The position numbers and the translations under genes were made by a program. Below, one piece after another: positions 6,612 to 27,704 of a DNA stretch of 64,000 nt. How positions within the stretch are numbered: position 1 is the stretch's first letter; the number at the start of each line of letters is the position of its first letter. Source of the DNA: Leptospiraceae bacterium (GTDB lineage: Bacteria > Spirochaetota > Leptospiria > Leptospirales > Leptonemataceae); contig PBEB01000038.1 in assembly GCA_002717505.1 (NCBI GenBank), positions 1-64,000 on the forward strand. The letters run 5' to 3'. Below the pieces are notes generated by a model. The model saw only the letters and a program-made list of their open reading frames with translations. It was not told the origin of the DNA and searched no databases.

Positions 6612-7100
6612 TCAATTGATTTTATAGAACTCCTTGTCCAGATACTCCGGCGAAAGACAGGGTTGCAGTTCCTGCTTTCGGCTGTCAGACATCCATTCGT
6701 AGTTCGCGCTTCCTACCGGCCTGTAAACCTCTCCGCAATCCTTAATGTTTCGCGTAAACACGGGCCGAAAGGAATCCCAGCCACCTGTATTGCAGAGAAA
6801 GATTATTTCCCCTGGCTTTGCATCAACAGACAGCAGAGTTTCTCCAGAACTCTGCCTCACTCCATCATGGTAACGCAGAAGAAACTCATGCTTTCCGGCA
6901 GGCAATACCATTTTCAAGTCCAGCGGAGACCATACATAGTATTCTCCGTCGATTTCATTACTCTTTATTCCCTCATCTATACAGAGCGTGGCTGTGTTAT
7001 GGCCCTGCTCCTCGGCATCCTTAAGATACCTTACCGAGCAACCGGCCAGGGCACTCAAACCAACGCTCAAAACCGAAAGAATAGCTACTAACTTCTTCAT
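6612..7100 (-). CDS. Small lipoprotein, DUF2846-like
   Basis: 162 residues. The signal peptide MKKLVAILSVLSVGLSALAG ends in a classical lipobox LAGC, with Cys at 21. The mature part contains short beta-rich phrases (LPAGKHEFLLRYHDG, LSVDAKPGEIIFLC) typical of DUF2846/PEGA-like beta-sandwich modules found in envelope lipoproteins. The molecular role is unknown. It ends in its own terminator and has no close neighbour on the same strand, so it is probably a single-gene unit. Confidence 0.75.
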   Translation of the reverse strand: MKKLVAILSVLSVGLSALAGCSVRYLKDAEEQGHNTATLCIDEGIKSNEIDGEYYVWSPLDLKMVLPAGKHEFLLRYHDGVRQSSGETLLSVDAKPGEIIFLCNTGGWDSFRPVFTRNIKDCGEVYRPVGSANYEWMSDSRKQELQPCLSPEYLDKEFYKIN

Positions 7101-7222
7101 AAGAAAGCTCCTGGATCAAAGTAGCAAGACCTTGCCAGATGGTCAGACCCGGTCAAGGGAATACTCCAGATCGCCACAATTTCAATCCAATGAAAAGCCA
7201 GACCAGACGCTGATTCAGGTCA

Positions 7223-7251
7223 GAATTTCGGGAGGCTGAAGCCCGAGATTC
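7223..7251. other. Intergenic hairpin downstream of the flavodoxin gene
   Basis: GAATTTCGGG and CCCGAGATTC form a 10-bp stem with one mismatch and a 9-base loop that can itself pair further (GGCT/AGCC). It lies just past the flavodoxin stop on the minus strand. There is no T-run, so it may be a Rho-dependent or transcript-end stabiliser rather than an intrinsic terminator. Confidence 0.35.
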
Positions 7252-7269
7252 AAATGCCCCTTTTGCTAT

Positions 7270-7881
7270 TCAGCCCGGAACCTGGGCCGGGAATGACTCC
7301 CTGGCATTCTGGACATCCGTTTGCCATGCTCTGCTGAAAGCCCGGGATTGCCCGCTAGCCCAGTCCTGAATCTCGGAAAGATTCCGATAGTCCCCCTGCC
7401 TCAATCCAGTGATTAGCATAGCTGCGCGAAAAGGCATTCTGACCCAGAGCGGCATGGCTTTATAGTTGAGAGTACCTGCAAAGCCACGAACATCCACCGG
7501 ACGAATCGCAGGAACCAATTTGCGAATCCAGGACTCATATTTTCGAGCGCTATTCTGTCCTGCCTGACCACCGGCTAGAGAGAGGCAGGAAAAAAAGAAG
7601 GACACGGGCTTTGAAGCAAGCTCCATCTCGAAAGACTTCACATATTCGCTCATGGGCTGTAACCATCGATCATAGCGAATGGCGCTTCCAGCGATTACCG
7701 CATCAAACCCGGATGGATCTGGCCAGGACTGACGATTTAAATCAATTTCTTTCAGTGTAATCTCTGCAGTGTCCTGTAGCCCCCGGGCAATGGTCTCCGC
7801 AATCCGTGTGGTGGAACCTGTGCCTGTAGAAAAGAGCACCAGCACCTTTTTGTTACTTGAATGATTTTCTTCCCTTCCCAT
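7270..7881 (-). CDS. Flavodoxin-domain protein, HemG-like
   Basis: About 203 residues from ATG 7881, chosen because a GGGGGAAG site sits just upstream; a longer frame to 7935 would run through the shared operator. The N-terminus has the flavodoxin FMN phosphate loop (LVLFSTGTGSTTRIAETIA), then SAIRYDRW, similar to the GSPIR.G.W region of menaquinone-dependent protoporphyrinogen oxidase HemG and other flavodoxin-like quinone-linked oxidoreductases. The substrate is uncertain. It is divergent from a TetR regulator whose probable operators occupy the gap, so it is very likely the regulated target. Confidence 0.82.
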   Translation of the reverse strand: MGREENHSSNKKVLVLFSTGTGSTTRIAETIARGLQDTAEITLKEIDLNRQSWPDPSGFDAVIAGSAIRYDRWLQPMSEYVKSFEMELASKPVSFFFSCLSLAGGQAGQNSARKYESWIRKLVPAIRPVDVRGFAGTLNYKAMPLWVRMPFRAAMLITGLRQGDYRNLSEIQDWASGQSRAFSRAWQTDVQNARESFPAQVPG

Positions 7882-7905
7882 TTCACTTCCCCCTTTTTCG
7901 CTTGC

Positions 7906-7920
7906 TTGACACACTGTAAA
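7906..7920. promoter_or_regulatory. Candidate TetR operator 1 in the divergent gap
   Basis: TTGACACACTGTAAA is the left half of an inverted repeat pair with TTTACACAGTGTCAA at 7950-7964 (15 of 17 matching bases when flanks are included). It is itself an imperfect palindrome. It lies between the flavodoxin and tetR starts, as expected for a TetR site. Confidence 0.5.
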
Positions 7921-7949
7921 GCAAATGCTTTGCAAAAAGAAGGGGTTGA

Positions 7950-7964
7950 TTTACACAGTGTCAA
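7950..7964. promoter_or_regulatory. Candidate TetR operator 2, overlapping the tetR start
   Basis: TTTACACAGTGTCAA contains a perfect ACAC-A-GTGT core. It covers the likely GTG start of tetR (7958-7960), so a bound repressor would block both divergent genes. It is the mirror image of the site at 7906-7920. Confidence 0.5.
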
Positions 7965-8566
7965 GCAAAAAAGAAGAAAAGTCAGAAACCCGTAATCGAA
8001 TCCTTGAGGCCACACAGAAGCTCCTGGAAGGACCTGATACTTCCGTACCCGGTATGGCGGATGTGGCTGCTCAGGCCGGAATCTCACGGCAGGCAGTGTA
8101 TTTGCATTTTTCCTCTCGAGCCGATCTGTTAATCGAAACCATCCGTTTCATAGATGAGAGAAATGGACTTCCAGAACGATTGTCTGCACTTCAAGCCATA
8201 GAATCCGGAATAGAAAGGCTGGATCGATGCGTTCATGTTTGGGGAGAATATTTGCCGGAGATTCAGGGCATTTCCAGAGCTCTACTGATGCTACGGGACT
8301 CGGATCCGGAAGTAATGGAGGCCTGGGACGAAACCGTGAGATGCCTCAGCGATGTTTGCAGGGACTGCCTGACCACGCTGAAGAATCAGGGCCTCCTGGC
8401 CAGCGAATGGACAGTACCGAAAGCAACCATCATGCTCACAGGTATGCTATCCATTCCCTGCTGGGAAGAGTTGCAGAGATTGGGCTGGAGCAACCGCGAG
8501 TATATCAAGAGCTTGAAGCTTTCTGTGCGAAAGACCTTTTGCGCGCCACAGGAAAGAGAGGAGTGA
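7958..8566 (+). CDS. TetR/AcrR-family transcriptional regulator
   Basis: About 202 residues from GTG 7958, preferred because AGAAGGGG lies about 12 bases upstream; an ATG at 7925 in the same frame is also possible. The N-terminal helix-turn-helix is clear: TRNRILEATQKLL, then VAAQAGISRQAVYLHFSSRADLL. The C-terminal ligand domain is family-typical but not specific. The inverted operator pair in the divergent gap suggests it represses itself and the flavodoxin gene. Inducer unknown. Confidence 0.9.
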   Translation: MSSKKEEKSETRNRILEATQKLLEGPDTSVPGMADVAAQAGISRQAVYLHFSSRADLLIETIRFIDERNGLPERLSALQAIESGIERLDRCVHVWGEYLPEIQGISRALLMLRDSDPEVMEAWDETVRCLSDVCRDCLTTLKNQGLLASEWTVPKATIMLTGMLSIPCWEELQRLGWSNREYIKSLKLSVRKTFCAPQEREE

Positions 8567-12300: not shown

Positions 12301-12354
12301 TCTCGATTGACAGGTCAGTGTGCGCCCGCCATTCGGACTGTAACCTACCCGATT

Positions 12355-13704
12355 ATGAACCAATACAAGATTAAAAAAGGCTACGACCTTCCTATAAAAG
12401 GCCAGGCAGAGAAATCTATTCTGGGATCTACGGAGCCGTCCCGTCTGCACGTTCATCCTACTCATTTTGCTGGCATAAAACCTCGCATGCTTCTAAAGAA
12501 AGGCGACGCTGTAAAACGCGGCACTCCTCTCTTTCATGACAAGAAGCATCCGGAAAGAGTTTTCGTTTCTCCGGGAGCAGGTATTATTGAAGATATCGTT
12601 CTGGGCGAGCGACGAGCCCTGGACAAAGTAACCATCAAGCTAAGCGGCGATGATGCAGAGCAGTTTCGCGCCTATAAAAAGGAAGAAGTCTCCGGCATTA
12701 ATCGCGAGGACTTGATCGACCATCTTCTTAAAGGTGGACTCTGGCCGCAGATTCGTCAGCGGCCTTTCAGCCGAGTAGCCAATCCGGAAATCACTCCTTC
12801 TTCAATCTTTGTAAATTGTATGGATACGGCCCCTCTGGCAGCGGATCCCGAGTTCAACCTTCAGGGGAAAACCATTGAATTCCAGACCGGCATTGAAGCA
12901 TTGAAAGTGCTCTGCCCTACAGTTCATGTAGTAGTGGCTGCTGGAAACAACAGCTCGGATTTTCTCAAATTAGATGGCGTTCAACAGCATAGCTTCGCTG
13001 GAAAGCATCCATCGGGTCTGACAAGCACTCACATTCAAAGAATCGATCCAATCGTTCCAGGGAAGCAGGTCTGGTATCTTAACGCCAGAGATGTAGTTGA
13101 TATTGGAGATTACCTGCTGGTAGGCCAATATCCTGTGGAGCGGGTGGTAGCTCTGGCAGGCCCAGGAGCCAGTAAAACCGGCTATGTAAAAACTAGAAAG
13201 GGAGCCCCTCTGGCAGAGATCGCTTCAGTGGCAGGAACTCAGGAAAGCGTTCGCCTGATTTCGGGCAATGTCCTGGTTGGTTTCGGTGATAAGGCAGACG
13301 ATGGCCTGGCCCTTTACGATGACCTTGTTACGGTGGTTCCAGAAGGCGGGCATGAACGATTTCTGGGTTGGCTTATCCCAGGATTTTCCCGTCCCACTTT
13401 TAGCCGATCTTATCTGGCAGGGTTTCTTCCTGGCCGACGACTATCCATGGACACATCGCTGAATGGCGAAGAGAGAGCCTTCGTTAAGACCGGGGATTAC
13501 GAAAAGGTGATGGGAATCGATGTGCTCCCTGATGTCCTGACTAAAGCAATCCTTATCGAAGATGTAGAACGTATGGAGAAGCTGGGAATCCTGGAAGTGG
13601 ATCCCGAAGACTTTGCCCTGTGTGCCTACATCTGTCCTTCCAAAATTGAGTTCTGCGACATTGTTTCCCGCGGCATTGAAATGATGGAAGCCGAGATGGT
13701 TTAA
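12355..13704 (+). CDS. nqrA: Na+-translocating NADH:quinone reductase subunit A
   Basis: 449 residues from ATG 12355, which gives the canonical N-terminus YKIKKGYDLPIKG; in-frame upstream codons to 12307 are not needed. NqrA is the soluble quinone-associated subunit of the sodium-pumping NADH dehydrogenase. Family sequences include FVSPGAGIIEDIVLGERRAL and HPSGLTSTHI. It is the first of six consecutive genes with tight spacing. No strong ribosome site precedes the ATG. A candidate TTGACA at 12307 has no convincing -10. Confidence 0.95.
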   Translation: MNQYKIKKGYDLPIKGQAEKSILGSTEPSRLHVHPTHFAGIKPRMLLKKGDAVKRGTPLFHDKKHPERVFVSPGAGIIEDIVLGERRALDKVTIKLSGDDAEQFRAYKKEEVSGINREDLIDHLLKGGLWPQIRQRPFSRVANPEITPSSIFVNCMDTAPLAADPEFNLQGKTIEFQTGIEALKVLCPTVHVVVAAGNNSSDFLKLDGVQQHSFAGKHPSGLTSTHIQRIDPIVPGKQVWYLNARDVVDIGDYLLVGQYPVERVVALAGPGASKTGYVKTRKGAPLAEIASVAGTQESVRLISGNVLVGFGDKADDGLALYDDLVTVVPEGGHERFLGWLIPGFSRPTFSRSYLAGFLPGRRLSMDTSLNGEERAFVKTGDYEKVMGIDVLPDVLTKAILIEDVERMEKLGILEVDPEDFALCAYICPSKIEFCDIVSRGIEMMEAEMV

Positions 13705-13733
13705 TCCCATCCCCTACTGGAGAGAGAAAAACT

Positions 13734-14969
13734 GTGAAGTTTCTACTAAAGCAAATCCATAAGAACGATCATCTATTCCAGAAAGGCGGCAAGCTAGAGC
13801 GATTGCATCCGCTCTGGGAAGCTCAAAACACCTTTCTGTTCACCCCACCCCTGAAGACCCAAAACGGTCCTCATGTGCGAGACTCCATCGATCTGAAGCG
13901 ACTGATGATTACGGTTGTGGTGGCATTGATTCCGGCAACGATCTTCGGCATCTACAATGCCGGGTATCAGCAATTGCTGGCCCAGGGAGTAATTAAGCTC
14001 AGCGAAGGTGGATTCTCTGCCATGACCGGCGACCAGCATCTGCAGGCGCTGATCAGCGGCGCCACGCTTGTTCTTCCCATCATTCTGGTAAGCTATGCCG
14101 TGGGTGGCCTCTGGGAAGGAGTGTTCAGTGTAATTAGACGTCATCCGATTAGCGAAGGCTTCCTGGTTACGGGTCTGCTTTTTCCTCTCACTCTTCCTGC
14201 CACGATTCCTCTCTGGCAAGTTGCCCTGGGGATTTCTTTTGGCGTTGTCATCGGCAAAGAGATCTTTGGAGGCACGGGGATGAACATTCTGAACCCGGCC
14301 CTCACAGCTCGTGTATTTTTGTTCTTTTCCTTTCCTACTGACATCTCCGGCGAAGAACCCTGGATTGCCGTGGCATCCGATGCAGCAGTGGACGGATTTT
14401 CCGGCGCCACTGCACTGTTGATTGCTGCAGCTCCGGATGTTACAAATCCCATTCAAGCGTTGAGCAACTTCGGTTACTCGGGCGCAAATTTCAGTCTTGA
14501 AAATATGTTTCTGGGTTTTATTCCCGGTAGTATAGGGGAAACATCCACTCTGGCCATCTTGATTGGTGCAGCTATTCTGATCATCACTGGCGTTGGTAGC
14601 TGGCAAATCATGGTAAGCACTGTTCTGGGAGCCGTGGGTATGGCCTTCTTCCTGAACCAGTTCGCCGGGCCAGATCTACCTTCTATGCTGGCCCTTCGTC
14701 CGGAATACCATCTGGTCATGGGCGGATTTATGTTCGGAACGGTCTTTATGACCACGGACCCTGTAAGCGCGGCCCAAACAACCATGGGCAAATGGATCTA
14801 CGGTTTGCTTATTGGTATGCTATGCGTCCTGATTCGTGTATGGAACCCGGCCTATCCGGAAGGGATGATGCTGGCCATCCTGTTCATGAATATCTTCGCC
14901 CCGCTCATCGACCACTATGTAGTGGAAGGCAATATTAAGAGGAGGCTTCAACGTGCGGAAGCAAAGTAA
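13734..14969 (+). CDS. nqrB: Na+-NQR subunit B, covalent FMN carrier
   Basis: 411 residues starting at GTG 13734 with GGAGAGAG upstream. It is a polytopic membrane protein of the RnfD/NqrB family. The flavinylation motif DGFSGATAL is present; Thr226 is the predicted FMN attachment residue, modified by ApbE (encoded downstream at 18.4 kb). The subunit carries FMN and riboflavin and lines the sodium path. The C-terminal 17 bp overlap the nqrC start, suggesting translational coupling. Confidence 0.96.
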   Translation: MKFLLKQIHKNDHLFQKGGKLERLHPLWEAQNTFLFTPPLKTQNGPHVRDSIDLKRLMITVVVALIPATIFGIYNAGYQQLLAQGVIKLSEGGFSAMTGDQHLQALISGATLVLPIILVSYAVGGLWEGVFSVIRRHPISEGFLVTGLLFPLTLPATIPLWQVALGISFGVVIGKEIFGGTGMNILNPALTARVFLFFSFPTDISGEEPWIAVASDAAVDGFSGATALLIAAAPDVTNPIQALSNFGYSGANFSLENMFLGFIPGSIGETSTLAILIGAAILIITGVGSWQIMVSTVLGAVGMAFFLNQFAGPDLPSMLALRPEYHLVMGGFMFGTVFMTTDPVSAAQTTMGKWIYGLLIGMLCVLIRVWNPAYPEGMMLAILFMNIFAPLIDHYVVEGNIKRRLQRAEAK

Positions 14970-15813
14970 TCTTTATATCTTCGGATTCGCCATTGCGGTT
15001 TGTCTGTTCGCCAGTGTTGTTCTGGCTGTTGCATCCACCGCATTGAAGCCAGCGCAAACCCAGCAGGTAAGGTTGGACATTATCAACAATATCCTCAGCG
15101 TATCGGGATACTCCGAGCAGGAGCTGAAAGGAAAGAAGCCGGCGGAAATCATTGATCTCTACGAAAAGAAATTCGAGGTACTGCTGGTTGATAAGAACAA
15201 TGAACCGGTGGAACGTTCGGAAATGGAAAGCGAGCTGAAAGGCCTGGGCTATAAGGCGGATGAGTTGGAGGAGAAGAAGACCTTCGAACTCCTGGAAGTC
15301 TATAATAGCAAGATCGGATTACTGGCCAGAAGAGCTGGAAAGCCTCGAGAAGAGTATGACCGAGGCATCAAAGTAGTCTATCTCTACAAACCGGAAGGTG
15401 AGATCAAATACTACATCATTCCTATAGAAGGAAATGGTCTCTGGGGCATGATGTATGGCTACATTGCTCTGGAAACCGATTTGAACACAGTAGCCGGTAT
15501 CCGCTTCTATAAGCATATTGAAACTCCAGGCCTGGGCGCTGAACTGGCCAAGATTGACCACAACGAAAAATGGATTGGTAAGAAAATCTTGGATGAAGAC
15601 GGAAAACTCGTCTCTGTGAAAGTGGCCAAAGGAGACGCCGAGCAAACCCATGCGCAGGAGATCGAACACTACGTCGACGGAATCAGTGGTGCAACCCTGA
15701 CAGCAAAAGGGATCAATGAATTCCTGAGAGCGGACCTACTGACCTACGAGCCATACTTCAAGACGCAGCGTAAAGATGAAACCGCCAATGAAACGGCAGG
15801 AGAAGAACAATGA
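14953..15813 (+). CDS. nqrC: Na+-NQR subunit C, covalent FMN carrier
   Basis: 286 residues from GTG 14953 with GGAGG eight bases upstream, inside the end of nqrB. An N-terminal membrane helix (LYIFGFAIAVCLFASVVLAVA) is followed by a periplasmic FMN-binding domain. DGISGATLT places the flavinylated residue at Thr248. The first third holds a somewhat long, charged insert (about residues 50-110). NqrC passes electrons between the 2Fe-2S site of NqrD/E and the FMN of NqrB. It overlaps nqrD by ATGA. Confidence 0.95.
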   Translation: MRKQSNLYIFGFAIAVCLFASVVLAVASTALKPAQTQQVRLDIINNILSVSGYSEQELKGKKPAEIIDLYEKKFEVLLVDKNNEPVERSEMESELKGLGYKADELEEKKTFELLEVYNSKIGLLARRAGKPREEYDRGIKVVYLYKPEGEIKYYIIPIEGNGLWGMMYGYIALETDLNTVAGIRFYKHIETPGLGAELAKIDHNEKWIGKKILDEDGKLVSVKVAKGDAEQTHAQEIEHYVDGISGATLTAKGINEFLRADLLTYEPYFKTQRKDETANETAGEEQ

Positions 15814-16490
15814 GTGCAGCAACTGAAACCAAAACAGCCGCTCCCGCCAGACCCAAACAGCCGCTGTTTGGAAAGCAAGAACGGGAAGCCATCAAGGATC
15901 CTTTGTGGGACAATAACCCCATCACCATCCAGGTGTTGGGAATCTGTTCCGCACTGGCTGTTACCACTCAGATGCAAGCCTCCCTGGTAATGGGTTTATC
16001 AGTGGTAGCCGTACTAACGTCTTCCAACCTCATCGTTTCTCTGCTGCGGAATTTGATTCCGGGAAAAATTCGGATTATTGTGCAGCTGGCTGTGGTGGCC
16101 AGTCTTGTGATCCTGGTGGATCAGATTCTCAAGGCCTACATGTTTGGGATGAGCAAGCAGCTCTCCGTCTTTGTGGGATTGATCATTACCAACTGTATTA
16201 TTCTGGGCCGGGCGGAAGGCTTCGCCATGGCAAACAAACCTCTGCCCTCTATTATGGACGGACTGGGTAATGCGTTCGGCTATGCAGCCATTCTGTTGAT
16301 CGTAGCGTTGTTCCGCGAAGTTCTGGGTAACGGAAGCTTTTTTGGACTAAGAGTAATTCCTGAAGCCATGTATGAGATTGGCTACAAGAACATCGGTCTG
16401 ATGATTCTGCCTCCGGGTGCCTTTTTGATCCTGGGTCTTCTAATCTGGGTTCAGCGTAGCGTGTCCGGCAAGTATGAGGCCAATCGATAG
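15810..16490 (+). CDS. nqrD: Na+-NQR subunit D
   Basis: 226 residues; an integral membrane protein of the RnfA/RnfE/NqrD/NqrE family with six predicted helices. Two conserved cysteines are visible in membrane helices (VLGICSALAV and TNCIILGRAEGFA). Together with two in NqrE they hold the intramembrane iron (2Fe-2S) site. A hydrophilic N-terminal extension of about 30 residues is rich in Ala, Pro and Lys. It overlaps nqrC by 4 bp and is 9 bp from nqrE. Confidence 0.95.
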   Translation: MSAATETKTAAPARPKQPLFGKQEREAIKDPLWDNNPITIQVLGICSALAVTTQMQASLVMGLSVVAVLTSSNLIVSLLRNLIPGKIRIIVQLAVVASLVILVDQILKAYMFGMSKQLSVFVGLIITNCIILGRAEGFAMANKPLPSIMDGLGNAFGYAAILLIVALFREVLGNGSFFGLRVIPEAMYEIGYKNIGLMILPPGAFLILGLLIWVQRSVSGKYEANR

Positions 16491-16499
16491 GAGATAACC

Positions 16500-17108
16500 A
16501 TGGCAGATCTGATTAGCATAGCAACCAAAGCAATCTTCGTTGAGAACATTCTCCTGGCCTACTTCCTGGGGATGTGCTCCTTTCTCGCTGTTTCGAAAAA
16601 GGTATCCACGGCCGTAGGTCTGGGATTCGCCGTAGTTTTCGTAAACGGTATTACAGCTCCTATCAACTGGCTGATTAACAACTATCTGCTGGCGGATGGT
16701 GCTCTGGCCTGGGCAGGCATGCCTACCATCGACCTTAGCTTTCTGCAGTTTATTCTATATATTTCCACCATTGCAGCCCTGGTGCAGCTGGTAGAGATGA
16801 TCATCGATAAGGTGTCCCCTACTCTCTATGCAAACCTGGGGATCTTTCTACCCTTGATTGCAGTGAACTGCGCCATTCTGGGAACGTCCCTGTTTATGGG
16901 CACCAAAGGTTATGGCTTTGTAGAAAGTACAGTCTTTGGATTCTCCAGTGGCATTGGCTGGATGCTGGCCATCGTTGCCATGGCTGCCATTCGAACCAAG
17001 ATCCAGTATTCCAACGTTCCTTATGGATTGCGAGGTCTTGGTATGACTATGATTCTCACCGGGCTAATGGCCATTGGCTTTATGTGCTTTGTGGGCATCA
17101 ACCTCTGA
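16500..17108 (+). CDS. nqrE: Na+-NQR subunit E
   Basis: 202 residues, matching the family length, with six membrane helices and inverted topology relative to NqrD. The paired cysteines ([11 protein letters not shown] and [12 protein letters not shown]) complete the NqrD/E iron site that takes electrons across the membrane. A GGAGATAACC site precedes the ATG. It belongs to the six-gene nqr operon. Confidence 0.96.
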
Positions 17109-17126
17109 TAGGGTACGGACTATAGC

Positions 17127-18359
17127 ATGGAAAATTTACTGATTATTGGATTAAGTGCAGCGGTCTTTACAGCTGTAATTATTGGCCTCGTGGCTATCAT
17201 TACCGTGCTGGAAAGAAAGCTGGTGGCCCAGGGTAGTGTTCGTATTAACATCAATGACAACGAAGAGAAAAGCATTGATGTGGCCGCCGGTAGCAACCTG
17301 CTCAGTGCTTTGAGTGAAGCCGGTATCTACCTTCCATCGGCCTGTGGTGGCGGTGGAACCTGCGCAATGTGTCGTTGTCAGATTACCGACGGCGGGGGGG
17401 ACATTCTTCCCACGGAAGAAGGTCATTTCTCCAGAAAAGAAATCAAAGAGCAGTGGAGATTGTCCTGCCAGGTCAAAGTGAAAAACGATATGAAGATTCA
17501 CGTTCCGGACGAAATCTTCAGCATTCAAAAATTCAAAACCAAAGTTCGCTCCAACGACAATGTGGCCACTTTCATTAAAGAACTGGTACTGGAAATCGAA
17601 CCTGGCTCAGAGATGGATTTTGATGCAGGTGGATACATTCAGATCTACATCCCACCCTATCATCTGAACTTCAAAGAGTTCGATGTAGAAAAGGAATACC
17701 ACGAGGACTGGGACAAGTTCAACCTGTGGCGATACAATGCTTCCAACGATGAAGAGATCTTTCGAGCCTATTCCATGGCCAATCATCCTGCGGAAGGAAA
17801 CATTGTAATGCTTAACGTACGAATTGCCACTCCTCCGCCCAAAAAGGACGTTCCCCCGGGTATTGCATCCAGCTACATCTTCAACCTGAAACCGGGAGAT
17901 GAAGTGGATGTCAGTGGGCCCTACGGAGAATTCTTCATCAAGGATACAGACCGTGAGATGGTATACATCGGTGGTGGTGCCGGTATGGCTCCGCTGCGAA
18001 GCCATATCTTTCATCTCTTCCATACACTGAAGACCGGTCGCAAGGTATCCTACTGGTATGGGGCCCGGAGCTTGCGCGAAGTTTTTTATGAAGAGCATTT
18101 CAGAGAGATTGAAAAGCAATTTCCGAATTTCTCATTCCATCTGGCTCTTTCAGACCCACTTCCGGAAGACAAATGGGAAGGTCCCACTGGATTCATCCAC
18201 GAAGTGGTGCTGAATGAGTATCTGGACAAGCATGAGGATCCCAGCGAAATCGAGTATTATCTCTGCGGCCCTCCATTGATGCTCTCAGCCGTACAGAAGA
18301 TGCTGTACGACCTGGGCGTTGAAAAGGAAATGATTGCGTTCGACGACTTCGGAAACTGA
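17127..18359 (+). CDS. nqrF: Na+-NQR subunit F, NADH-oxidising subunit
   Basis: 410 residues: one N-terminal membrane helix, a ferredoxin domain with Cys73, Cys79, Cys82 and Cys114 ([12 protein letters not shown] and SCQV), an FAD domain (RAYSMANHP; then SGPYGEFFI), and a NADH domain ([23 protein letters not shown]). It feeds electrons from NADH into the pump. It is the last gene of the operon and is followed 30 bp on by a strong terminator. Confidence 0.97.
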
Positions 18360-18388
18360 TAACGAAGATTTCGCACAGCATGGAAAAT

Positions 18389-18422
18389 CACAAAAGCCGG
18401 AGGAGTTCCTTCGGCTTTTGTG
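18389..18422 (+). terminator. Intrinsic terminator of the nqr operon
   Basis: CACAAAAGCCG pairs perfectly with CGGCTTTTGTG, and inner AGGA/TCCT pairing extends the stem. TTTATT follows. It lies 30 bp after nqrF. The A-rich left flank also permits bidirectional use, but no minus-strand gene ends here. Confidence 0.85.
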
Positions 18423-18446
18423 TTTATTAGAGCAAAGTAATTGAAG

Positions 18447-19700
18447 ATGAGCGAATCAGGAAAAATGAGAAAACCCGAGCGAGACTCCTACCTTTCTCAG
18501 CGGCAATTCCGGTCATGGAATTCAGGGGCTCTGACCTTCCTGGTTTCCCTGGCCGTTCTGGCACTCGGTTTCGGATGCAAGGCCCGGGAATCGGTAACAT
18601 TGCAGGGCAGCACCATGGGCACGAGCTACAGTATCAAGCTCCGTAACCTGCCCCCGGAACAGGACGCCGCTGAGCTCAAAAAGGCCATCGATGAGCTTCT
18701 TCATGAAACCGATTATCGCTTTTCCAGCTGGCAACAGGATGAGCTATATAAAGTGAACAATCATCCGGTAGGGTCTGAACTTCAGATCAGCCCGGATTTC
18801 TGCCTTGTTCTCTATAAATCCCAGCTGGTCTGGAAATCCAGCGAAGGCGAGTTCGACCCAACCATCGGCGATCTTATCAATCTCTGGGGCTTTGGGCCAG
18901 AGGAGAACCAGGGAAAACCCGGCGATGCACAGATAAAGGCTGCTCTCGCACAGGCAGGCTTTCAGAATCTGAAGCTCAGCCTGCCTGGCGGTGGTCCTGG
19001 ATCTACAGGCGAATACCAGAAGGAGATTCAATCCATTTCGGATTTGTATTCCCTCACATCGGTGAACTCCCTTCCGAACGCTTCACAACCCGAAGACTCT
19101 CCTTCGAATCAGGATGCGAAAGCCGGATGCTCCCTCATTCGCAGCACGGATCTAAATCTGAATCTGAGCGCCATTGCCAAGGGGCATGGTGTGGATCGCG
19201 TGGCTCAACTGTTGCGGAAAAAGGGGCTTCAGGACTTCATGGTGGAAATCGGCGGAGAGATAAAGACGGGTCCCGGAGGTGCATTTCGCATTGGCATCGA
19301 GCGGCCCAACTACGATGGAACGAGAAGCCTTTATACCGTGCTGGAATCCAGGAACAATTGCATCGCAACCAGTGGTAACTACAGAAACTTCTTTGAGAAG
19401 GATGGTAAGATCTACTCCCACATTCTGGATCCCAATACCGGCCGGCCCGGATTGAGCCGAATCCAATCGGCCACCGTGGTAGGACCGGATTGCGCTCTGG
19501 CAGATGCCCTGGCGACCGCAGCCATGATTCTGGATCCAGAGTCCTCCGCCCGAATGCTAAATGCCATTCATGAGAGCACCGGGGAAAAGTACGAATTTCT
19601 AATTCTGGAATCCGGTGAACTAATTCAAGGTGATACAGAGAATTTCAAGATTGAGGAGTATACAAGCTCCGGTCTGAGCGACATTCGAATCCAGAAGTAA
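18447..19700 (+). CDS. apbE: FAD:protein FMN transferase, lipoprotein form
   Basis: About 417 residues. The signal peptide ends in a lipobox LALGFGC (Cys44 from ATG 18447; a TTG two codons earlier is possible). ApbE-family motifs follow: GSTMGTSYSIKLR, LSAIAKGHGVDRVA, MVEIGGEIKTG, IATSGNYRNF and SHILDPNTGRPG. The enzyme attaches FMN from FAD to Thr in the SGAT motifs of NqrB and NqrC, both encoded just upstream. A Ser/Pro-rich insertion of about 50 residues (19000-19130) is not usual. It is separated from nqrF by a terminator, so it probably has its own promoter. Confidence 0.94.
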   Translation: MSESGKMRKPERDSYLSQRQFRSWNSGALTFLVSLAVLALGFGCKARESVTLQGSTMGTSYSIKLRNLPPEQDAAELKKAIDELLHETDYRFSSWQQDELYKVNNHPVGSELQISPDFCLVLYKSQLVWKSSEGEFDPTIGDLINLWGFGPEENQGKPGDAQIKAALAQAGFQNLKLSLPGGGPGSTGEYQKEIQSISDLYSLTSVNSLPNASQPEDSPSNQDAKAGCSLIRSTDLNLNLSAIAKGHGVDRVAQLLRKKGLQDFMVEIGGEIKTGPGGAFRIGIERPNYDGTRSLYTVLESRNNCIATSGNYRNFFEKDGKIYSHILDPNTGRPGLSRIQSATVVGPDCALADALATAAMILDPESSARMLNAIHESTGEKYEFLILESGELIQGDTENFKIEEYTSSGLSDIRIQK

Positions 19701-20739: not shown

Positions 20740-23700
20740 TCAAAAGGAGAATCCCACAGAGAACCGGCCTTCCCACTGGCTCAAAGGTAGACTCCGTTTT
20801 CCGTCATAGGGAGTGGCCCATTCGATTTTCATCAGCGCTCCCGGAAAAATGAACCACAGGAAATTGCTCCAGTGCACTCCCACTCCGAAGGATGCGTTCA
20901 GATCCCGGGTTACACCCACATCGCCATCGAAGGCCTGAAACCGTCGGTGGTCATCGAAAGCAGCCCCGGCATCAAAGAAAATGGCTCCGCGAATCAAACC
21001 AGGAGACCAACGAAACGGAGTTCCGAACAACAACTGATGAATGAAGGTAAAGCGATACTCCAGATTGATCACAAAGGCATTCCTGCCTTCAAACTCAAGG
21101 AAGGGGTAGCCGCGAATTGTGTAGTAACCACCTACAGACAATGGATACAGATCCGCATCGGGACCGCTGACCCGAGCAGCCAGGGCACGGAATGCAAAGA
21201 GCGAAAAGTCATCAAACAAATGATAGAACCTGTATTCGGCGCCGGCCACATAGACATGCCTCTGGTTTCCACCGGGCCGAAATGGAGCGGAATAGCTTAA
21301 TCGCAGAGCCTGGCCATCCAGAGGTCCATAAATCGAGTTTACCGTATTATCAAATGTGTACTGAAAAGAAAAGCTCTGGCGATTCTGAAAAATGTCTTCT
21401 CGCTCCCTCTGCTCCGGCTGAGCTTGAGTAAATGCCTTTTCTTCTCGAGCCACCTCGTAGGTTACGCTCAAGGCACCAAAGCTGTGCAGAGGATAACTTA
21501 CCGCCGCATATCCACCGGTACTTCTTTGATCGATGAGACGAAAGTAAGGATTATATAGCAGCTGATTGAGGCTGAAATCCAGAAAACTAAAGATGGCAAA
21601 GGTTCCCCGGGAGCTGTAAAGTCCGGCATAAAAATTGGCTCTCCATCTCGAATAACCATAGCGAATGTCCACATTGGTATTCACCGGACTATCCTGGTAA
21701 GTGATCAGGCCTTCCAGATCATGAAAACCGGAATCATCCGCCAGCGCGAAATAGGCGGCCCCGGCCAGACTGCTATTTCCGTTGGCATCGCTACCGCCTG
21801 TAATGAAGAGAATGGGAGGACGGGCCAGGGTCAAAGCCGGATCATAGGGACGATCCAGGGATTGTAGCTCCGGTCGTTTCGGATCGAGATCGGGCAATTG
21901 ATATTCGGAAGGATGAAATGTAGCGAAAGATGGCTCTTGAACCTCACTGTCTCCTTTCGGATCGGGGGAAATCATCCGGACCTCCAGTGCTCCCTCTTCC
22001 AGCCGCGAAAATAACAGGGAAAACTCGTCCAGGCCAGCGTCGGCTGGACTATCGCCCTGGTCCGTTCTCGAGGCCCGGGAACTCTCATTTGCTCCTTTTG
22101 AAGTAACATAGGAGTCCAGAAATAGAATTTCGGTATCGGAAGCGGTAATTCGCTGAATGCGCCGCTCATCCAGAGCTTCTTCTCGTTCGCATGCTCCGGA
22201 GAGTCTGTACACATTTCTTACTCCTTCATGGTTGGAGAGAAAATATACGGAGCAATTCGGCCCCATCACTGGATGGCTGACATCTCCTTTCAGTTTCAGT
22301 AGTGGCTTGCCTGGATTTCTGAATTCGCCGCCGCATTTGCGAAACAATGTACGAAAACCTGCATCCGCCGGACGGTTCGGATCACCCTGATCTGAAATAT
22401 AGAAAATGCAATCGCCATATTGAATCGCATCGGATTCGTAGAAAGGGTTTTCGCTTATGCGCTCCAGTGTTCCGGTGCTCCAGCCAATTCGATACAGATC
22501 TGCAGCGGCCCCGGCCACTCCGGTAAATAGAATACTATCGCTTTGAGAATCATACTTCGGGAATTGCACCATATCAAAGGGAAGCGGTACAAACTTGATC
22601 AGCTCACCGTCCCTCACAGAAACCTGTGCGATTCCGGGCCTGCCCTCTTTGCGAGTGACCAGAAAAACGCTGCCAGATGGGCCAAAGCTAAGACGGTTGG
22701 TGAGCGGATACCATTGCTCAAAATCCCTGGACCGGAGCTGTCGCAATACCACCATCCTCTCGTTTCGCTTCTCCGGTTCCATGTACGGTCTCCCCACTCT
22801 CTGAATCACCAGGGCAGGAAAGATACCATCGTAACTCAGGTACGCGAAATATTGACCGTCTGGCGAAAATACCGGTCGCAGCTGAAATCCGACTCCGTCC
22901 AGGTATCGGAAGGTAAGTCTGGAAATGCGCTCATCGATTTCTGCCTCGGCCATCGCCTGACCGTATCGGGCAGAGAGAAAATCGCGGTACATGAGATCAA
23001 AAGCAGCCGGCGATACTCCGAAAGCAGACTTGAAAGCTGCATCAAAATCTTCAAGGGTAACCAGCTCCTTGTAGAACAAACCGATTCTTTCTTCGCCAAA
23101 CGTCTCAGCAATAAAATGCATTATGGATTGGCCGCCCTTATAATACATATAGGGATTTACGTTGCCATAGTGAAGATCAACCAGACCGGGCATGCGATGA
23201 TGAATCATCAAATCCCGAATCCGGGCATCCGCTTCCGCATCCCAGCCTATGGAAAGATATTCGCACATCCCCTCCATGAGCCAGAGAGGATACCGACCCG
23301 GATTTTCCTCGGCGATGTCAAACTGATAAGCATGAACAATTTCATGAACCAGTACATGACGCAACTTCTGGTAATCTCCAGTAAACGGTAGTACCACCCG
23401 GTGGCGTGCGAAATCTGTAAATCCGCCGGTGGACTCCGAAGGAATAATCGGTAAAATGCTGGTGGCCTGAAAATCCTGATCCGAAGGATAGAGAAAAACT
23501 TTGATCTTGTGGCCGATGGAATGCCTTAGAAGCTCTTCAATCCGGTTGGCTTCGGACTCTGCAATTCGACCGGCTTCTAGAGCCAGAAGGTAGCTACCTT
23601 TCTGGTAATGAATCTGGAATCGGCTGGTTTCCAGAATCCGCCAATGTGGTGTATTCAGAGATATCTTCTGCTGCGCCTCCAGGGTCATGGGGCTGAAAAG

Positions 23701-23745
23701 CAGAACAAGAACGAGCAATGCGACAAAATCCTTGACCCTCTGCAC
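20740..23745 (-). CDS. Exported zinc-peptidase-like, beta-propeller and Omp85-type barrel fusion
   Basis: About 1001 residues from GTG 23745, chosen because GGAGAAAAGG precedes it and it yields a clean signal peptide (FVALLVLVLLFSPMTLEA). Residues about 25-265 form a peptidase MA/M1-like domain with HEIVH (134-138) and a downstream glutamate in LMEGMCEYL (about 158), the gluzincin metal site. The middle (about 270-620) reads as TolB/WD40-like propeller repeats (RPVFSPDGQYFAYLSYDG). The C-terminal 350 residues look like an Omp85/surface-antigen barrel: YTIRGYPFLEFEGRNAFV resembles the conserved VRGF loop, and the chain ends in Phe (VGFSF). It is probably an outer-membrane protein with a periplasmic protease. 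Substrate unknown. Confidence 0.85.
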   Translation of the reverse strand: MQRVKDFVALLVLVLLFSPMTLEAQQKISLNTPHWRILETSRFQIHYQKGSYLLALEAGRIAESEANRIEELLRHSIGHKIKVFLYPSDQDFQATSILPIIPSESTGGFTDFARHRVVLPFTGDYQKLRHVLVHEIVHAYQFDIAEENPGRYPLWLMEGMCEYLSIGWDAEADARIRDLMIHHRMPGLVDLHYGNVNPYMYYKGGQSIMHFIAETFGEERIGLFYKELVTLEDFDAAFKSAFGVSPAAFDLMYRDFLSARYGQAMAEAEIDERISRLTFRYLDGVGFQLRPVFSPDGQYFAYLSYDGIFPALVIQRVGRPYMEPEKRNERMVVLRQLRSRDFEQWYPLTNRLSFGPSGSVFLVTRKEGRPGIAQVSVRDGELIKFVPLPFDMVQFPKYDSQSDSILFTGVAGAAADLYRIGWSTGTLERISENPFYESDAIQYGDCIFYISDQGDPNRPADAGFRTLFRKCGGEFRNPGKPLLKLKGDVSHPVMGPNCSVYFLSNHEGVRNVYRLSGACEREEALDERRIQRITASDTEILFLDSYVTSKGANESSRASRTDQGDSPADAGLDEFSLLFSRLEEGALEVRMISPDPKGDSEVQEPSFATFHPSEYQLPDLDPKRPELQSLDRPYDPALTLARPPILFITGGSDANGNSSLAGAAYFALADDSGFHDLEGLITYQDSPVNTNVDIRYGYSRWRANFYAGLYSSRGTFAIFSFLDFSLNQLLYNPYFRLIDQRSTGGYAAVSYPLHSFGALSVTYEVAREEKAFTQAQPEQREREDIFQNRQSFSFQYTFDNTVNSIYGPLDGQALRLSYSAPFRPGGNQRHVYVAGAEYRFYHLFDDFSLFAFRALAARVSGPDADLYPLSVGGYYTIRGYPFLEFEGRNAFVINLEYRFTFIHQLLFGTPFRWSPGLIRGAIFFDAGAAFDDHRRFQAFDGDVGVTRDLNASFGVGVHWSNFLWFIFPGALMKIEWATPYDGKRSLPLSQWEGRFSVGFSF

Positions 23746-23779
23746 GGGCGAACCTTTTCTCCTAATCGCCCCTCCTCCT

Positions 23780-25945
23780 ATGAATAAGAAATGGTACATT
23801 CTGATTGGTCTGACGCTGGCTATCTTGCTCGGCGGCTGGCTCTCTATCCCTCTGGTAGAAGCCCGACTTCATGCCTCCCTGGAGGCCATGCAACTGGAAT
23901 CTACAATTCAGAAGGAACTGGAAACCACAGGACTACGGCTCACCTTTCAGGGAAAGAGATTTGAATTACTACACGGACTGATTCTCAAGGGGGCCAGGCT
24001 TGAGAAAGAAGAAAACGGTAAATTCTATGAAGTAGCGGAATTCAGAGATCTGGTGCTGGACGTTTCCTATCTTGCCTGGCTGACCGGTGGTCAGCCTCTG
24101 AGAAGCATTCGAAGCTACAATGGCAGGCTATATTCCAATGCAATCCTCAGCCATAGATCTGGTTCATTTCTAGAAGAACTCAGGACTTTGCTGGCAGAGC
24201 GTGATCTGGATGTACATTTGCAAAACATTGCATGGGAGACGGCCGGCAACAATGCACAGAGTGGTATTCGTGCAGATCTGGATCTGGAACCGGACCAATC
24301 TGGTTTGAACCTGGACTTTCGATTTCATGGAGATAGTGGAGAGATCCGTTTCCATGGCACTCTAAACAATGACAGACGTCGCATATTCATTACACTGTCC
24401 GAAGTGCCGTTCAAACTACTCATGGACTTCATGAGGACATCGGAATCGGTGCCCTCGCTTCAGATTCTACCTCGTTGGACCCAGGTCCGAGGAGAAATTA
24501 ATGGAAAGGGAAGCATGGATCTCAGGGAACCCGGAACGGCCATCAACCTGAAGGGCCGTTTCCATAGCCTTTACATGGACGGTAGCGAACCTCTGGGCCT
24601 TCGCTTTCGCAACCTGGAAGGAGACTATCATTTTACTCAGGTTCATTCCTATGAACGCGGAGTTCTGCAATCCGACATCGAAATCCAGGCATCCCCGCAT
24701 CTAAACGCAAAGCTGACCTATAGCCGAAAGGAGGATGGCCTGGCCCATTCTCTGGGATTGGAAGGAAGCATGAGTTTCCAGGATATGCGCGAAAACCAGA
24801 ATGCCCGATTGTTCAATACCCTGGTTCATTGCGATGGAGATGTAGATTTTCAGATCCAAACGAGGTACAATGAATCCCTGACTCGCATAGAGGTTGAACC
24901 GGACATCCGATTTAAGGATCTAAAACTCTATCCGCCTATGAGTTGGCCCGGCGGCAAAGAAGCCCTGGTAAACCTGAATATTCATCTGGATCCGGTGACC
25001 CGAAAGCTAACAGGAAAAGGAATGGTTTTAGACGCTCCCTTCACGGTGGACTCCCGGGGTACGGTAGATGTGACCAGGGTAAACGATGGAGGACTACGAC
25101 TGATTCAGAATTTTGATCATTCAGCTACGGTGGATGGTCTGTCCTATCGCAAGCTAACACAGCTCATTTTGCATGCCCATACATGGATCCTGGATCGAGC
25201 CTCCCGGCCAGATGCACGAAAGGCAGAGGATCTGGGGCCACTCTGGGAAAACGAGTTCATCGATATGCCGCTGTACACTCAGTTACTCGCCGGGCTGAAT
25301 CTTAAGGGACAGATCCAGCTTATCAACCTTCAAGGCGGCCAGGGGTTACCCGAGAATGCAACGCTACGTATCTCTTCCAATCCGCAAAACTTCAACTTAA
25401 CTCTCGACGAAGACTCCGGCGAACCCGGGCTTTTTCGTGCCCGATATATGGGAGTCTGGAATGAACAGTTGCCCAGCCACACGTTGAGTCTAAACATCAA
25501 ACAGAAAAATATTCAGATCGATTGGCCGGAGATAACCAGGAAAAAAGGGCCTTCCGGAGTTAGCATCGATGCAAACTTCAGCTCCAGCGGTCTGTATCCT
25601 GCTGACTTGATGAATTACAGCAACGGTCAGCTTTACTTTGAAGCCTATGAAATGGACATGAAAGCGTTCGCACCTTTCGAACTGGCCCTGAAAATGCTGG
25701 GAAAAAAAGTCCCGGATGCTGCAGTGATCGGGGATATTGAAGTAGTAAGATCCGGAACCGGGCAGGAAATAGAATACTATCGCATTGTTGTAGAGACCGA
25801 TTCCTTCGTAGCCCGAGGTGGTGGCCGTTATACAATCTACGAAGGCGGAAATACATGGCTCAAAGTTGCCATGGATGGAAATCAGGATACCTTGAATTTT
25901 CAGGTTCAAAAGAACGGAAAATGGCTACCCGACGATGGTCTCTAG
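23780..25945 (+). CDS. AsmA-like envelope protein
   Basis: About 721 residues from ATG 23780. One N-terminal membrane helix (KWYILIGLTLAILLGGWL) is followed by a long beta-strand-rich periplasmic region with phrases typical of AsmA/TamB/DUF748 proteins (LTFQGKRFELLHGLILKGARL, GTAINLKGRFHSLYMDG). These proteins form hydrophobic grooves linked to phospholipid transport or outer-membrane assembly. The start is only 34 bp from the divergent barrel protein, so the pair may share a control region, and both could act in envelope biogenesis. Exact subfamily uncertain. Confidence 0.78.
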   Translation: MNKKWYILIGLTLAILLGGWLSIPLVEARLHASLEAMQLESTIQKELETTGLRLTFQGKRFELLHGLILKGARLEKEENGKFYEVAEFRDLVLDVSYLAWLTGGQPLRSIRSYNGRLYSNAILSHRSGSFLEELRTLLAERDLDVHLQNIAWETAGNNAQSGIRADLDLEPDQSGLNLDFRFHGDSGEIRFHGTLNNDRRRIFITLSEVPFKLLMDFMRTSESVPSLQILPRWTQVRGEINGKGSMDLREPGTAINLKGRFHSLYMDGSEPLGLRFRNLEGDYHFTQVHSYERGVLQSDIEIQASPHLNAKLTYSRKEDGLAHSLGLEGSMSFQDMRENQNARLFNTLVHCDGDVDFQIQTRYNESLTRIEVEPDIRFKDLKLYPPMSWPGGKEALVNLNIHLDPVTRKLTGKGMVLDAPFTVDSRGTVDVTRVNDGGLRLIQNFDHSATVDGLSYRKLTQLILHAHTWILDRASRPDARKAEDLGPLWENEFIDMPLYTQLLAGLNLKGQIQLINLQGGQGLPENATLRISSNPQNFNLTLDEDSGEPGLFRARYMGVWNEQLPSHTLSLNIKQKNIQIDWPEITRKKGPSGVSIDANFSSSGLYPADLMNYSNGQLYFEAYEMDMKAFAPFELALKMLGKKVPDAAVIGDIEVVRSGTGQEIEYYRIVVETDSFVARGGGRYTIYEGGNTWLKVAMDGNQDTLNFQVQKNGKWLPDDGL

Positions 25946-25971: not shown

Positions 25972-26388
25972 ATGTCGCTGCCTCAGAAAAAAAGAAATCC
26001 TTTCCGGAGCCCTGAAACCTTACGGAGCCTCTGCTGTGTGGCGGCCTTGCTGGGCCTCTCTCTGACATTCAATGGCCACTGTTCCGATGATTCCCGGGAG
26101 CAATACCAGCAGTCCATTCAGAAAGATCCAGGGGAGTATGCCGGTCGGTATCTCATTGAACCTTCGCGCAAACTGCACTATCTGACACTCAAGGAAGATG
26201 GTACAGCCATCAGCGAAAAGGAAGGCAGGCGTCAGATTGGTTTCGTGCAGCGAGATTCTAGAATGCTGCGTATCTATATTGAGGATCGTAATCGGCCCAC
26301 GGGCCTTTTCTTGCTATCCGATTACAGTGCGAAGGACTGGCGGGGTATGTGGAACAATTCCGTTCGCATCCTGAAAAAACAGCCCTAA
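25972..26388 (+). CDS. Small exported protein, possible lipoprotein
   Basis: About 138 residues from ATG 25972; the in-frame extension to 25855 overlaps the AsmA-like gene and carries no signal. A basic N-terminus and hydrophobic segment (CCVAALLGLSLTF) end at NGHC (Cys37), a weak lipobox. The remainder contains an alternating pattern (YLIEPSRKLHYLTLKEDGT, RQIGFVQRD, LRIYIEDR) suggesting a small beta-barrel or lipocalin-like fold. It follows the AsmA-like gene by 26 bp and is probably co-transcribed. Function unknown. Confidence 0.65.
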   Translation: MSLPQKKRNPFRSPETLRSLCCVAALLGLSLTFNGHCSDDSREQYQQSIQKDPGEYAGRYLIEPSRKLHYLTLKEDGTAISEKEGRRQIGFVQRDSRMLRIYIEDRNRPTGLFLLSDYSAKDWRGMWNNSVRILKKQP

Positions 26389-26580: not shown

Positions 26581-27024
26581 TTGTACATCGGCAATGTGCC
26601 GCCGGCCTACGACAAACTTCTTCTGGAAATGATTTCACGATTCGGGCAGGATGTGAAACTATACAGAGAGAACCGAGGACTTAGAATGTCCGATGCTGCG
26701 GAAGATCTGCGCAAGCGATACGGACTGAAGATCGATCAGAGTTACCTTTCCAGAATCGAATCCGGCCAGGTAGACATCAAATTGAAGCATTTCCTCGCTC
26801 TGGCCGATTATCTGCAACTGGACATTTCTGCGCTGGTGGCATCGCTGGTCGCGCCTTCCGGAATCGAATACCTGGCCCGGGATCCGTATGTATTTCGTTC
26901 TCTGGTCAGACTCAGAGAAGAACTGGGACCGGACGATGCTCTGCAAACCCTGAATCAGTTCTTCGAATGGATGGAAGATTACGACGATCGGCGAAAAAGG
27001 AATCGAGGGAAAAAGAAGCCCTGA
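26581..27024 (+). CDS. XRE-family helix-turn-helix regulator
   Basis: 147 residues from TTG 26581; an ATG at 26629 is an alternative. A Cro/C1-type HTH runs from about residue 22 to 82: KLYRENRGLRMSDAAEDL, then IDQSYLSRIESGQVDI and KHFLALADYLQLDISAL. The C-terminal part is short and acidic, then ends in a basic tail (RKRNRGKKK). An AT-rich stretch (26480-26530) upstream is the likely promoter region. Target genes unknown; the next gene downstream is a phospholipid synthase 47 bp away. Confidence 0.82.
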   Translation: MYIGNVPPAYDKLLLEMISRFGQDVKLYRENRGLRMSDAAEDLRKRYGLKIDQSYLSRIESGQVDIKLKHFLALADYLQLDISALVASLVAPSGIEYLARDPYVFRSLVRLREELGPDDALQTLNQFFEWMEDYDDRRKRNRGKKKP

Positions 27025-27071: not shown

Positions 27072-27704
27072 ATGAAGTTCCGGGACGCCTTCCAGGAAAA
27101 TTATCTCACTCTGAGCAACTTTCTATCGGTTAGTCGCGTACTTCTGGTCCCCCCGTTTCTGTACCTGGGACATTCCTTCAGTCAGGCCCCACGTGAGCTT
27201 CATCTTCTATATGGTCTGCTGGTCATCGTTTTCATCGCCATCCTATCTGACTTCCTGGATGGATTCCTGGCTCGAAGATGGAGTCAGGTGACCATGGTAG
27301 GTCAATACCTGGATCCGATCTGCGATAAGATCGTAACCCTGGCTGCCCTCACTCTACTGCTCATTGATTTCGAATTCCCCATCTGGATCTATGCATTTTA
27401 CTGGCTTCGAGAAATCGCAGGTGTCTGGGCCGGTACCTATCTCTATTTTAAGAGGGATGTGCAGGGAAAACCCAACATCTGGGGCAAGATAGGTGTATTT
27501 GTTGTGGGGCTCTGTACTACATGGTATCTGCTGAACCCTTTCTTGAAGCAGCATTTGTCAGAGGATCACTGGCTGACTCATCCAGTGATATCTGCCTATG
27601 TACTGGCTCTGGTTCTGATTCTGGGCATCATTTCCTACGCCCGCTCCTATGGTAAGCTGGTGTTCCGGCCTCAGTCATTGGAAAAGCCCGAATCCAGGCC
27701 CTAG
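27072..27704 (+). CDS. CDP-alcohol phosphatidyltransferase (PgsA-like)
   Basis: 210 residues with several membrane helices. The complete family motif D-x2-D-G-x2-A-R-x8-G-x3-D-x3-D is present: Asp60, Asp63, Gly64, Ala67, Arg68, Gly77, Asp81 and Asp85. These residues bind metal and the CDP-diacylglycerol substrate. The closest guess is phosphatidylglycerophosphate synthase, but PssA- or other headgroup transferases share the motif, so the acceptor alcohol is not certain. It stands 47 bp after the XRE regulator and ahead of recA. Confidence 0.88.
   Translation: MKFRDAFQENYLTLSNFLSVSRVLLVPPFLYLGHSFSQAPRELHLLYGLLVIVFIAILSDFLDGFLARRWSQVTMVGQYLDPICDKIVTLAALTLLLIDFEFPIWIYAFYWLREIAGVWAGTYLYFKRDVQGKPNIWGKIGVFVVGLCTTWYLLNPFLKQHLSEDHWLTHPVISAYVLALVLILGIISYARSYGKLVFRPQSLEKPESRP

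Follow-up and report, generated by a model that had tools for sequence, protein, structure and literature searches.

A spirochaete Omp85 protein joined to a TolB-like propeller and a predicted zinc peptidase, and its linkage to an AsmA-like gene in one bacterial family

The window, a stretch of 64,000 nucleotides from a Leptospiraceae bacterium (contig PBEB01000038.1 of assembly GCA_002717505.1), contains on its minus strand a gene whose product joins a peptidase domain, a beta-propeller and an Omp85-superfamily barrel in a single chain. The RecA encoded in the window shares 74% identity with the RecA of a MAG labelled Leptospirales bacterium, in keeping with a spirochaete origin. The longest open reading frame at this position, 20740-23799(-), has 1019 aa, and residue numbers given here refer to that frame. 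Since a GTG at 23745 has AGGAG/AAGG upstream and, as read from the sequence, opens directly into a clean signal peptide, we consider it a better start than 23799. In the window, 34 bp separate this proposed start from that of a divergently oriented gene for an AsmA-like protein, which is followed by a gene for a small putative lipoprotein. The features of the locus are as follows.

20740..23745 (-), whole gene, peptidase MA, TolB-like propeller and Omp85 barrel, 1001 aa from the GTG at 23745
23674..23745 (-), predicted Sec signal peptide (MQRVKDFVALLVLVLLFSPMTLEA), read from the sequence
22930..23667 (-), gluzincin-type peptidase domain, residues 45-290, the most conserved domain of the chain, with collagenase peptidase domains as weak matches in Foldseek
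23332..23346 (-), HEIVH, predicted zinc and catalytic motif, residues 152-156
23260..23274 (-), EGMCE, residues 176-180
22180..22929 (-), TolB-like beta-propeller by profile match, approximately residues 291-540; further blades may reach approximately residue 640
21835..22179 (-), variable linker or last part of the propeller, residues 541-655, the least conserved part of the mature chain
20743..21834 (-), Omp85-superfamily barrel, residues 656-1019, with a terminal aromatic residue, F1019
21106..21114 (-), RGY loop-6 motif, residues 896-898, R896 present in 33 of 34 relatives
20965..20979 (-), FxDxG Omp85 motif, residues 941-945, with F941, D943 and G945 invariant in 34 of 34
23780..25945 (+), AsmA-like protein, predicted to be anchored in the inner membrane, divergent
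25972..26388 (+), small putative lipoprotein, downstream of the AsmA-like gene, with a Cys that is invariant in 13 sequences and comes after a hydrophobic stretch (alignment A4)

In a Pfam scan of the single protein, Omp85 (PF01103) exceeded the cut-off (E 3.9e-11), Peptidase_MA_2 fell slightly below it (E 1.9e-6; 28.3 bits vs a 32.4-bit cut-off) and PD40 matched weakly; the same scan gave no patatin domain and no match to PF00149. The reference set for conservation consisted of 34 full-length spirochaete relatives, which were aligned and each scanned singly with Pfam. Peptidase_MA_2 was found in 32 of them, PD40 in 30 and Omp85 in 29, with best E-values of 3.8e-14, 4.4e-34 and 7.2e-16, respectively, and no POTRA family was among the Pfam matches listed for the protein or its 34 relatives, the variable linker included. 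Measured as consensus frequency in this alignment, conservation was highest in the peptidase domain (0.55), followed by the barrel (0.51) and the propeller (0.44). Judged from the sequences, the three-domain anatomy and the conservation of its motifs far exceed chance. Thus the chain of peptidase, propeller and barrel with an RGY loop, which the preliminary description had read from one sequence, is borne out by profile searches and by conservation among the 34 relatives.

The peptidase domain is marked by a set of invariant residues (H152, E153, H156, W173, E176, G177, E180 and Y220, each in 34/34 relatives), and the 15-residue window of highest conservation in the chain, residues 171-185 (0.81), lies beside HExxH. 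E176 probably provides the third zinc ligand, and the W-x-x-E-G-x-x-E pattern around it is that of M1-type gluzincins. HExxH and the downstream E-G are also retained in homologues from Anaeromyxobacter, Geomonas and an FCB-group bacterium. Since the catalytic and zinc residues are conserved across relatives, we infer that the predicted peptidase is very likely active. The peptidase domain is also very likely periplasmic; we place it and the propeller there because of the precedent of PlpD, whose enzyme domain, likewise located N-terminally of an Omp85 barrel, was once thought to be secreted and instead stays in the periplasm (PMC11116518). Accordingly, of the active periplasmic zinc peptidase proposed in the preliminary description, HExxH and the downstream glutamate stand in every relative, and the activity and the location are argued from these residues and from PlpD, respectively.

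For the other two domains, the family profile was also compared with solved structures and matched TolB at E 1.6e-33 and, among the matches listed, BamA at approximately 3e-8 to 1e-6; a PDB search with the single protein sequence gave no match. The C-terminal residue is F or Y in all 34 relatives. The window's own genome encodes two Omp85 proteins, the present one and another with a stronger match that is probably BamA. Structure prediction, which had been proposed as the check on the barrel and the gluzincin fold, was run weakly. AlphaFold models built from two sequences were poor (pLDDT 31 for the full-length protein, which is unusable, and a mediocre 57 for the peptidase domain alone), and the fold assignment therefore rests on homology. 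The leading PDB matches of the peptidase-domain model were the peptidase domains of ColH and ColG, two collagenases of the gluzincin type (prob 0.9, TM ~0.3), at an E-value of 0.4 that is not significant alone; these matches agree with the homology and fall short of proof.

The divergent arrangement with the AsmA-like gene is kept in 17 genomes of 8 genera, all of the same bacterial family. A small-lipoprotein gene lies near the AsmA-like gene in 13 loci, and an HMM search added one more (14 in total); at one locus (L114) it is several kb distant. In one genome (G016) the peptidase-barrel gene is missing from beside the AsmA-like gene, and in two others (G012 and G013) the latter sits at a contig end. 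Other neighbours mostly change between genera of the family, and no neighbour conserved outside the family was found among the loci of the other relatives. The divergent gene itself appears real, and its assignment as AsmA-like is a weak one: hhalign aligned the first ~240 residues with the start of E. coli AsmA (prob 41, E 2.8e-4; 0.33 for a reversed control), comparisons with YhdP, YdbH and TamB gave no signal, and DUF748 was matched by two of the 16 AsmA-like members (best E 3e-4). PF04357 (TamB, DUF490) matched neither the AsmA-like neighbour nor any protein of the window's own genome. The conserved linkage with the AsmA-like and lipoprotein genes appears to be new and points to outer-membrane maintenance. 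The preliminary description had suggested that the peptidase-barrel and AsmA-like genes form an envelope assembly or secretion-processing device, with co-occurrence as a check. Their linkage is upheld in the 17 genomes of this family, but since it is absent elsewhere, the AsmA-like neighbour cannot be a general part of such a device.

A search of 61 relatives gave a match in 40, comprising 17 of the 22 genomes of the same bacterial family, none of the eight from the order's other family, and almost all genomes of the remaining class. In a sample of 295 genomes, made up of Spirochaetota of at least 90% completeness and the window's own genome, approximately 59 carry a member at E < 1e-50, nearly always as a single copy. 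The three-part chain also occurs in Anaeromyxobacter, Geomonas and an FCB-group bacterium and is thus not peculiar to this genome, in keeping with the earlier remark that such domain combinations are seen in some genomes; the chain recurs across several phyla. As far as the sequences can tell, the anatomy is real and widespread, and what is said below of mechanism is a proposal. We also considered a role specific to LPS. At the same threshold the family is present in 44 of 84 LpxC-positive genomes vs 15 of 211 LpxC-negative ones (raw counts, uncorrected for relatedness), and these clear exceptions make an LPS-specific role unlikely despite the enrichment.

Several variants were seen at the edges of this distribution. 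Viral contigs contained no relatives among those scanned, and a plasmid search returned one relative without a barrel, on Salinibacter ruber plasmid pSR116 (L177, 3869-5770), where a peptidase-propeller protein is annotated as basic secretory protein-like. A relative of 566 aa (L182, genome G163, 6864-8564) stops after the propeller at a stop read in frame, so that either the barrel was lost or the gene is broken. Anaeromyxobacter sp. PSR-1 has two distinct three-domain members (L160 and L159) vs the usual one in spirochaetes. Genomes of the sister family f2 that lack the gene (G022, G024-G027 and G029) contain very large frames of ~1500-2750 aa that match the propeller part only (e.g., G027:C186 and G022:C2).

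Omp85 proteins construct or supply the outer membrane. Among them, a beta-propeller N-terminal to the barrel, the lack of POTRA and TolB as the closest propeller are shared by the present protein and the WD40-Omp85 subfamily, which received its name from Heinz and Lithgow (2014, PMC4104836) and in 2024 was described as not yet well characterised (PMC11116518). The barrel-propeller part fits this subfamily, and by its sequence the protein is a peptidase-bearing form of this known but unstudied kind. A peptidase MA domain goes unmentioned in the main text of PMC4104836, where the word peptidase is absent, and relative to this subfamily the invariant catalytic centre appears to be new. The 'Metallo' Omp85 subfamily (PMC4104836) likewise combines an Omp85 barrel with a metalloenzyme domain; however, that domain, PF00149, differs from Peptidase_MA. 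As the preliminary description had remarked, no job has been described for a chain of this type, and the closest group is itself uncharacterised (PMC11116518).

We propose, with a probability of roughly 0.4, that the protein is an outer-membrane-anchored Omp85 protein in which a propeller and a zinc peptidase replace POTRA and which acts as a periplasmic processing or quality-control peptidase. The barrel would sit in the outer membrane, and the propeller would hold the peptidase beneath it and present substrates or partners. The peptidase may then trim or remove outer-membrane or periplasmic proteins, a function like that of BepA at BAM but within a single chain. In this bacterial family only, the AsmA-like inner-membrane protein and the small lipoprotein, presumably in the outer membrane, probably work with it. 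This reading is favoured by domains found in 29-32 of the 34 relatives, the invariant catalytic residues, the presence of two Omp85 proteins in the window's own genome, the PlpD precedent and synteny over 8 genera. BepA, a zinc metallopeptidase acting on barrel proteins at the outer membrane (PMC8423444), is proposed as a functional analogue, although it is a separate periplasmic protein. PlpD, of the patatin-Omp85 group, shares a periplasmic enzyme N-terminal to the barrel, but is a lipase with POTRA and without a propeller (PMC11116518), whereas the present chain carries a predicted zinc peptidase. Against this reading, the gene is absent from the sister family, where it is therefore dispensable, and the AsmA-like link is restricted to one family and broken in G016. 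A deeply conserved Omp85 protein with an invariant peptidase centre in the same chain suggests that, in several phyla, proteolysis is an integral part of maintaining the outer membrane; the AsmA-like and lipoprotein genes, being conserved, provide named candidate partners. BepA, for its part, belongs to a different peptidase family, M48.

A possible but doubtful alternative is a trans-envelope module resembling TAM, in which the AsmA-like protein would bridge the periplasm and dock on the barrel for lipid transfer or barrel insertion, with the peptidase in a regulatory part. TamA-TamB is a pair of an Omp85 and an AsmA-family protein, and in TAM, as with TamL, the two are genetically linked (PMC4494059). 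The divergent pairing in 17 genomes and the precedent of the E. coli YdbH-YnbE operon, an AsmA-like and small-lipoprotein pair, are consistent with such a module, as is the finding that nearly every genome of this class has no Pfam TamB match or a marginal one, with clear matches in several other spirochaete lineages, in other classes. However, TamA combines POTRA domains with its barrel and POTRA is absent from the Pfam matches here, the partner has no Pfam TamB, and the genes are divergent rather than in an operon. Moreover, the AsmA assignment is weak, the pairing is confined to one bacterial family, and TamB and the peptidase-barrel protein coexist in several spirochaetes (G049, G057, G058 and G060). 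A further conjecture, which we regard as unlikely, is that in this Leptospirales-like family, which shows no confident canonical TamB, the protein, the AsmA-like protein and the lipoprotein form a distinct trans-envelope module in which peptidase and propeller replace POTRA and lipid or protein delivery is coupled to proteolysis.

The remaining explanations turn on how much weight the peptidase domain bears. That the protein is a BamA-BamB-like fusion for assembling outer-membrane proteins, as Heinz and Lithgow proposed for WD40-Omp85 (PMC4104836), would suit the conserved RGY and FxDxG motifs, but it makes the peptidase minor to the main task when this is the most conserved domain, and a probable BamA is also present in the genome; we consider it unlikely. 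In a further reading the barrel would export the peptidase and propeller, giving a self-secreted surface peptidase of a type Vd-like kind, a route earlier suggested for patatin-Omp85 proteins (PMC4104836). PlpD has since been shown not to follow it (PMC11116518), and we reject self-secretion on that precedent; a folded propeller of ~300 residues between peptidase and barrel makes it all the more improbable. Least credible is a catalytically dead peptidase domain serving as a binding scaffold, which draws no direct support beyond a single-protein profile match just under the Pfam cut-off and has against it the invariance of all expected catalytic and zinc residues.

Other genes in the window surround this locus. 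The lipoprotein gene is followed by a helix-turn-helix gene (26581-27024, +) and then by a CDP-alcohol phosphatidyltransferase gene of phospholipid synthesis (27072-27704, +), which is found repeatedly in the family, at 9 loci. At 12307-19700 (+), the translations look like those of an nqr operon, for a Na+-translocating NADH:quinone reductase, with apbE after it (ApbE, E 9e-72).
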